Of a stretch of 64,000 bases of DNA, positions 14,104 to 15,001 are shown in pieces. Position 1 is the first letter of the stretch; each line of letters opens with the position of its first letter. The position numbers and the translations under genes were made by a program. Under the pieces are notes generated by a model. The model was not told where the DNA came from. It did no database searches and saw only the letters and a list, made by a program, of their open reading frames with translations. The stretch is from an uncultured Poribacteria bacterium (GTDB taxonomy: Bacteria; Poribacteria; WGA-4E; WGA-3G), in NCBI GenBank assembly GCA_951812525.1, contig OX638316.1, forward strand, positions 3,156,506 through 3,220,505. The letters are read 5' to 3'.

Positions 14104-14643
14104 TTAGGATTCACCGTTCTTGGTCAACCGCTCAACGATTTGTTCAACAGCACCCTCTGCGCGCTCCCGAATCTGGTCTGGTGTTAGACTCTGAATCGGA
14201 TGTGGGACGGTGAGAGGTTCTAAGTCGCTATGACCCAGAACACGCGCTTGTACTTTGCCTGCCGCGAAGAAAACTTCTGTACAGACCGCAACGCTTGGGA
14301 CACCACGTTCTTCTAAAGCAGTTCCATCGTGCATACTGCACGATATACATGACCCTCAGTCGGCAAGCCCTTCAATAACGAAGTCTACCTGCTCTGCCAT
14401 TTCAACGAGTAGTTCCGTCGGTGCCGGACGCGAGAACGTCGGTTTTTTGACGTGAACCACTTCGGCAAGGTCAAACCGTTCTTGCATTAATTCAGCAATG
14501 CGATCGAGAAAAATGTCGCTACCGTTCTTCGTGATATTCAGTAGACCCATCACTTTTCCATCAAGGCTATCGAGCCGCGGTGAGAGAAATTTCGCCGGGG
14601 CATCGCCTTGAGAGGTCGGATCAAGTAAAGTCGTATTTGGCAT
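14104..14643 (-). CDS. UGSC family selenoprotein (in-frame UGA at codon 96)
   Basis: Read as one gene this encodes 179 residues with an in-frame TGA at 14358-14356, codon 96. Upstream the frame ends ...VDFVIEGLAD; downstream it continues in frame with GSCISCSMHDGTALEERGVP. The result, D-U-G-S-C followed by a CxxC-like pair and a VHD/MHD-ELE-RG-P block, is the defining core of the UGSC (seleno)protein family. UGA is therefore read as selenocysteine; in other members a cysteine occupies this position. The family role is unknown, but a redox or reductase function is likely. A GAGGT site precedes ATG 14643. A hairpin just after the UGA is a candidate bacterial SECIS. The genome must encode SelA, SelB, SelC and SelD, none of which is in the window. 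Confidence 0.85.
14326..14346 (-). promoter_or_regulatory. Candidate bacterial SECIS hairpin
   Basis: On the minus strand, ATCGTGCA and TGCACGAT (14344-14337 and 14333-14326) form a perfect 8-bp stem with a three-base GTA loop. It starts 11 bases after the selenocysteine UGA, so the apical loop lies about 20 bases downstream, within the range known for bSECIS elements, which have a G in the loop. Confidence 0.6.
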
Positions 14644-14668: not shown

Positions 14669-15001
14669 TTATGTGGATGAATGGGATGTTTCCATCTGCA
14701 GCTGCTGCGACTTTGCCATCGCATCTTCTGCTTCTTGGATCATCCCTTTTCGTTGGTAACACACAGATAAACTGGTGTAGGCAAGCGGATCCTTCGGATT
14801 GATTTCTATTGCCTTCTGGACCGCCTCAATGGCTTCGTCGTATAGACTCAGCCGTTCATAGGCGTGTCCTAACCCAAGGAATCCTTCGATATAGTCTGGG
14901 TAAGTGTGAGTTAATTTTTTGAAAGCGTTAACAGCTGCTTGGAGATCGTTTTCCGCAAAATGAGTGAGTGCAGTGTCGTAAAGTTCTGCTGCGGTTGGCA
15001 T
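14669..15001 (-). CDS. Small TPR protein
   Basis: This 110-residue soluble protein consists of about three tetratricopeptide repeats. Residues 6-38 read ELYDTALTHFAENDLQAAVN and onward; the next unit is GFLGLGHAYERLSLYDEAIE; the third is AYTSLSVCYQRKGMIQEAED. TPRs make helical protein-binding surfaces, so an adaptor role is likely with the partner unknown. AAAGGA precedes ATG 15001. The gene lies 25 bases upstream of the UGSC selenoprotein on the same strand, so the two are probably co-transcribed. Confidence 0.88.
   Translation of the reverse strand: MPTAAELYDTALTHFAENDLQAAVNAFKKLTHTYPDYIEGFLGLGHAYERLSLYDEAIEAVQKAIEINPKDPLAYTSLSVCYQRKGMIQEAEDAMAKSQQLQMETSHSST

Follow-up and report, generated by a model that had tools for sequence, protein, structure and literature searches.

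The locus studied here lies in a 64,000-nucleotide window of contig OX638316.1 from an uncultured Poribacteria bacterium, where mechanical open reading frame (ORF) calling gave two pieces on the minus strand, at 14643-14356 (95 amino acids) and 14334-14104 (76 amino acids). It raises the question of whether these are two truncated genes or the halves of one gene containing a TGA codon that is translated as selenocysteine (Sec, U) and, in the latter case, what its product might do. A preliminary description had proposed a single selenoprotein gene of the UGSC family that a standard caller would report as two truncated genes, as the calling indeed did. When the TGA is read as U, a single 179-residue protein results (MPNTTLLDPT...VIEGLADUGSCISCSMHDG...KNGES), encoded at 14643-14104 and ending at a TAA stop codon (14106-14104). 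The position proposed for the TGA was correct, as this codon occupies 14358-14356, in frame between ...VIEGLAD and GSCISCSMHDG, and specifies residue 96. The joined protein matched PF24696 (UGSC) from position 2 to 171 of 172 (E = 4e-51, 174.1 bits, against a curated cutoff of 25 bits) and NF041046, named "UGSC family (seleno)protein," with 160 bits (cutoff, 125 bits). The read-through frame is intact and each half alone matched the adjoining part of NF041046 (profile positions 2 to 68 and 77 to 147), in agreement with the proposal of one gene. All of the family features tested, namely, the UGSC motif and the profile scores, were found. On these and the comparative grounds below, it is very probable that positions 14643-14104 hold one intact UGSC-family gene whose in-frame TGA is read as selenocysteine.

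To place the TGA within the family, the gene was compared across the phylum and with distant relatives. Among the 85 genomes of the phylum compared, 63 contained UGSC, and all full-length copies contained exactly one in-frame TGA (the counts concern copies spanning the site, and two listed matches that lack a stop are fragments). A scan of genome contigs found loci sharing the gene at 64 to 96% identity, all of them from "Candidatus Poribacteria." Outside the phylum, the residue at the TGA column was Cys in haloarchaea, in Embleya and Arthrobacter (both Actinomycetota), and in Roseovarius, alignment to Cys-carrying homologues having been proposed as a check. TGA was also present at this column in Acidovorax and Paracoccus ferrooxidans; in the latter, the UGSC gene sits on a plasmid between selA and selB. 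The codon thus falls on the U/C-G-S-C column of the family alignment and supplies the U of the UGSC core, as had been claimed. Across 17 diverse aligned sequences, Cys/Sec96, Gly97, Ser98, and Cys99 were invariant, and the third Cys of UGSCISC was not; the codon of Cys99, the likely resolving residue judging from the alignment of distant relatives, is at 14349-14347. Two trivial explanations of the TGA were weighed against this pattern. A pseudogene or a sequencing error, with the TGA as a real stop, would agree with the two truncated ORFs of a standard caller, but independently assembled genomes of many species and several families share the same single TGA codon in their full-length copies, and coding conservation goes on past it, with the 3' piece alone matching 71 profile positions; the probability of this explanation is negligible. 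Lineage-wide reassignment of UGA, for instance to Trp or Gly, would be consistent with the frame, which stays open in any genetic code with TGA as a sense codon. However, the UGSC gene itself terminates in TGA in relatives L028, L033, L036, L040, L044, and L051, and thus the code has not changed in general; the aligned residue is Cys, neither Trp nor Gly, and the selenocysteine machinery and insertion signal described below are in place. We regard reassignment as extremely improbable.

A candidate selenocysteine insertion sequence (SECIS) was identified directly 3' of the UGA, as in bacterial SECIS elements, in the form of a hairpin (AUCGUGC-AGUAU-GCACGAU; 14344-14326, minus strand) located 12 to 30 nucleotides downstream of the codon, with the loop AGUAU. 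Its small apical loop with a G agrees with published bacterial SECIS elements (PMC1088965). The global folding energy of the UGA region was unremarkable on its own (z scores of -1.2 and -1.7), and only 34 of 5,000 synonymous recodings folded as stably as the native hairpin. Among 60 distinct UGSC genes, several codons after the UGA were nearly frozen (TCG at +5 in 59/59, TGC at +6 in 59/60, AGT at +7 in 60/60, and CAC at +9 in 60/60), while Ser, Cys, and His codons varied outside the hairpin in the same genes; mean relative codon entropy was 0.25 in the hairpin versus 0.79 at 62 other conserved sites. The seven-pair stem was paired in 94% of cells, versus 3 to 58% with one arm slid, and its innermost pair was seen as C-G, G-C, and U-A, indicating compensatory changes. 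The hairpin was also kept in Acidovorax and Paracoccus, with exchanged pairs and the loop AGUGU. As the hairpin is under constraint at synonymous sites, it lends independent support to the selenocysteine reading. On the other side of the UGA, the preceding codon (14361-14359, minus strand) was GAC in all 60 genes and never GAT, with Asp codons varying elsewhere, possibly owing to an upstream context requirement for a C before the UGA.

The preliminary description had further implied that this lineage uses selenocysteine and pointed to the sel genes as a check. The host genome, a single contig of 5.06 Mb assigned to "Candidatus Poribacteria," encodes tRNA-Sec (selC, 78 bits; ARAGORN agreed, with anticodon tca), SelB (336 bits), SelA (594 bits), and SelD (358 bits), all exceeding their curated cutoffs. 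selB lies beside selC, its stop codon being approximately 20 bases ahead of the tRNA gene, and tRNA-Sec was detected in 73 of the 85 genomes. The SelD gene (L174, G000:C1:3914052-3914975) itself has one in-frame TGA (...KCAGUASK...), at which standard callers would truncate SelD. A second split selenoprotein gene, PrdB/GrdB-like, was found outside the window at G000:C1:935269-936012 (L172:7719-8462, minus strand), where FLTPV-TGA is followed by PMCNQSVGLIQRAVE (...FLTPV-U-PMCNQSVG...) and a hairpin comes after the TGA. Both this TGA and the hairpin were also present in ten relatives inspected, so that the TGA was read in 11 genomes. Across the phylum, 66 genomes gave PF07355 matches above the cutoff; the Pfam model ends just ahead of the Sec. 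The sel machinery, together with the TGA-containing SelD and PrdB-like genes, establishes that the lineage uses selenocysteine, as implied, and that the UGSC gene is not alone in doing so.

As to what the protein might do, its genomic associations were informative. A protein of approximately 315 to 370 amino acids, here termed the partner, adjoins or is fused with UGSC on plasmids of haloarchaea, Paracoccus, Roseovarius, Arthrobacter, Acidovorax, Variovorax, and others. No match to the partner was found in Pfam or NCBIfam, and weak matches to repeat proteins in the PDB were dismissed as compositional. Its alignment showed an invariant Cys in MAGC (MxxC) and the motifs DGLPVVPPT and SPWxPLHVERG. 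Searching with one haloarchaeal partner protein recovered it in 63 of the 85 phylum genomes, and its distribution followed that of UGSC: 61 genomes had both genes, 20 had neither, and 4 were discordant, the partner being present in 61/63 UGSC-positive versus 2/22 UGSC-negative genomes (Fisher's exact test, P = 4e-15). All four discordant genomes are draft assemblies split into many contigs. Within one genus (g4), 11 genomes had both, 6 had neither, and 1 was discordant (P = 4e-4), and the repeated absence of both genes within several genera favors the view that UGSC and the partner were lost together. A relative from the same class (L078:534-2222, plus strand) has the two fused in one 562-amino-acid frame with one TGA and a U-S-T-C variant of the motif, and a UGSC-partner fusion also occurs in Variovorax. 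Scans of viral contigs with UGSC and with the partner, and of phages with the DNA, gave no matches. In the host, the partner gene, of an unclassified family, is outside the window (G000:C1:4754237-4755178, corresponding to L171:7884-8825, minus strand), and in several Poribacteria the partner precedes two CBS-domain genes and 2-oxoacid:ferredoxin oxidoreductase genes. Plasmid neighbors of UGSC include genes for CoA-transferases, TRAP or tripartite transporters, PEP-mutase-like lyases, and DUF6282, and this neighborhood is a nonspecific pointer to the catabolism of small organic acids.

There were also signs of a link to thioredoxin. In L077, a relative from the same order, the UGSC and partner genes overlap, and the partner has an N-terminal thioredoxin-like domain with a CPTC motif (YDCPTCRLVKP...VPTLIR) that matched PDB thioredoxins weakly (E = 0.002). 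In Arthrobacter, trxA and trxB adjoin the UGSC-partner pair, as does trxB in Roseovarius and Variovorax. An AlphaFold2 model of UGSC (predicted local distance difference test [pLDDT], 83.7; predicted template modeling [pTM] score, 0.81) contains five strands (residues 31 to 36, 61 to 66, 88 to 94, 117 to 122, and 144 to 146) alternating with helices, with Sec96 in the loop that leads from strand 88-94 into helix 98-112. Its matches among PDB structures were generic Rossmann/flavodoxin-like domains with TM scores near 0.4 to 0.5, no thioredoxin was among the structure matches listed, and a profile search of PDB sequences returned no significant match. The predicted topology speaks for a Rossmann/flavodoxin-like rather than a thioredoxin fold; matches this generic are compatible with other folds too and point to no function.

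Taken together, these observations suggest a model of a two-component reductase in which UGSC serves as the catalytic, selenol-bearing subunit. The UGA at 14358-14356 is very probably decoded by Sec-tRNA(Sec) that SelB delivers under the direction of the downstream hairpin, which gives the 179-residue protein with Sec96 in the redox motif Sec-Gly-Ser-Cys. Sec96, in its loop at the N terminus of a helix of the Rossmann-like domain, would attack the substrate as a nucleophile; Cys99 would resolve the intermediate as a selenenylsulfide, which the thioredoxin system would re-reduce, and the partner, of approximately 315 amino acids, would form or complete the substrate site. We give even chances to this thioredoxin-fed reductase with the roles assigned to Sec96, Cys99, thioredoxin, and the partner. 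The broader proposal, held tentatively and at slightly less than even chances, is an undescribed thioredoxin-dependent selenoenzyme with UGSC and the partner as its two subunits; it would carry out the reductive transformation of a small organic acid or amine and would occur in Poribacteria, Pseudomonadota, Actinomycetota, and haloarchaea.

Several points weigh against these interpretations. The selenoprotein reading draws on sequence and comparative evidence and not on chemistry. Co-occurrence within one phylum partly reflects shared ancestry, and Fisher's test ignores the tree. The partner gene of the host is approximately 1.6 Mb from UGSC, and the gene that does adjoin UGSC codes for a TPR protein. 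The thioredoxin-like domain was seen in one relative, where it is weak by sequence and was missed by the Pfam search. Alternatively, UGSC may be a stand-alone thiol/selenol oxidoreductase with a thioredoxin-like fold and an antioxidant role, the partner being just a frequent neighbor. Many marine bacterial Sec proteins are of this kind, and the separation of the two genes in the host is in line with it. Nevertheless, the five strand-helix units of the predicted topology are of the Rossmann/flavodoxin type with generic Rossmannoid PDB matches, and the partner is kept and lost with UGSC and fused to it in some organisms, making this alternative unlikely. A different possibility is that UGSC is a true but divergent homologue of the GrdB/PrdB Sec domain, catalyzing reductive cleavage of a C-N or similar bond in an amino acid or betaine. 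Residues 82 to 162 matched positions 333 to 407 of TIGR01917, and hhalign placed D-C-G-S-C on P-V-C-P-x-C and the next helix, in register. This marginal match is suggestive of distant kinship, but the scores are far under the family cutoffs (TIGR01917, 19.1 bits versus 602.2, E = 5e-4; hhalign, E = 0.045), PF07355 gave no match, and the partner matches neither Pfam nor NCBIfam. Such weakness counts against any use of the GrdB/PrdB link in the two-subunit proposal as well, and true homology appears quite unlikely.

The TPR protein gene mentioned above (14669-15001, minus strand) encodes a small repeat protein and is directly upstream of UGSC on the same strand, 25 bp from its start codon. This pair is kept through the family of the host and is not found in other families of the order, and the remaining neighbors differ between families.

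The UGSC family and its Sec form have been known since the Global Ocean Sampling (GOS) work of 2008 (PMC2398784, PMC13188914), and it ranks with the most abundant selenoprotein families of marine and freshwater metagenomes, its function being uncharacterized (PMC2398784, PMC13188914). Bins of sponge symbionts from various phyla have been noted to contain SelA and SelB (PMC5649159), and no paper linking Poribacteria with selenoproteins was found in the literature searched. Here, the Sec form proves to be fixed across a whole phylum of uncultured sponge symbionts, which, with the ties to the partner and thioredoxin, provides a concrete enzyme to reconstitute. Standard annotation splits the UGSC gene in every such genome. 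If the two-subunit selenoenzyme is real, a family that ranks among the commonest selenoproteins of aquatic metagenomes would have a function assigned for the first time. By analogy, such an enzyme would resemble the thioredoxin-linked Sec subunits GrdB (PF07355) and PrdB (TIGR04483) without belonging to those families: it shares with them U-x-x-C at the start of a helix, a thioredoxin-linked context, and a second subunit, but sequence similarity is marginal and the host genome has a separate PrdB-like selenoprotein. The protein corresponds to the GOS UGSC family (PMC2398784; NF041046; PF24696) in its full-length match, the Sec in U-G-S-C, the SECIS downstream, and Cys homologues elsewhere. It departs from the GOS account in its host phylum, Poribacteria, and in its predicted Rossmann/flavodoxin-like fold, a thioredoxin-like fold having been suggested in the literature. 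What is added to the known family is the link to the partner and to thioredoxin. A fusion of UGSC with a conserved domain, "Unknown_1," was reported in the GOS work (PMC2398784, Figure S1A), and this domain is probably the same as the partner; relative to that report, the link described here adds joint absence over a phylum, adjacency in both archaea and bacteria, and a thioredoxin-like fusion.
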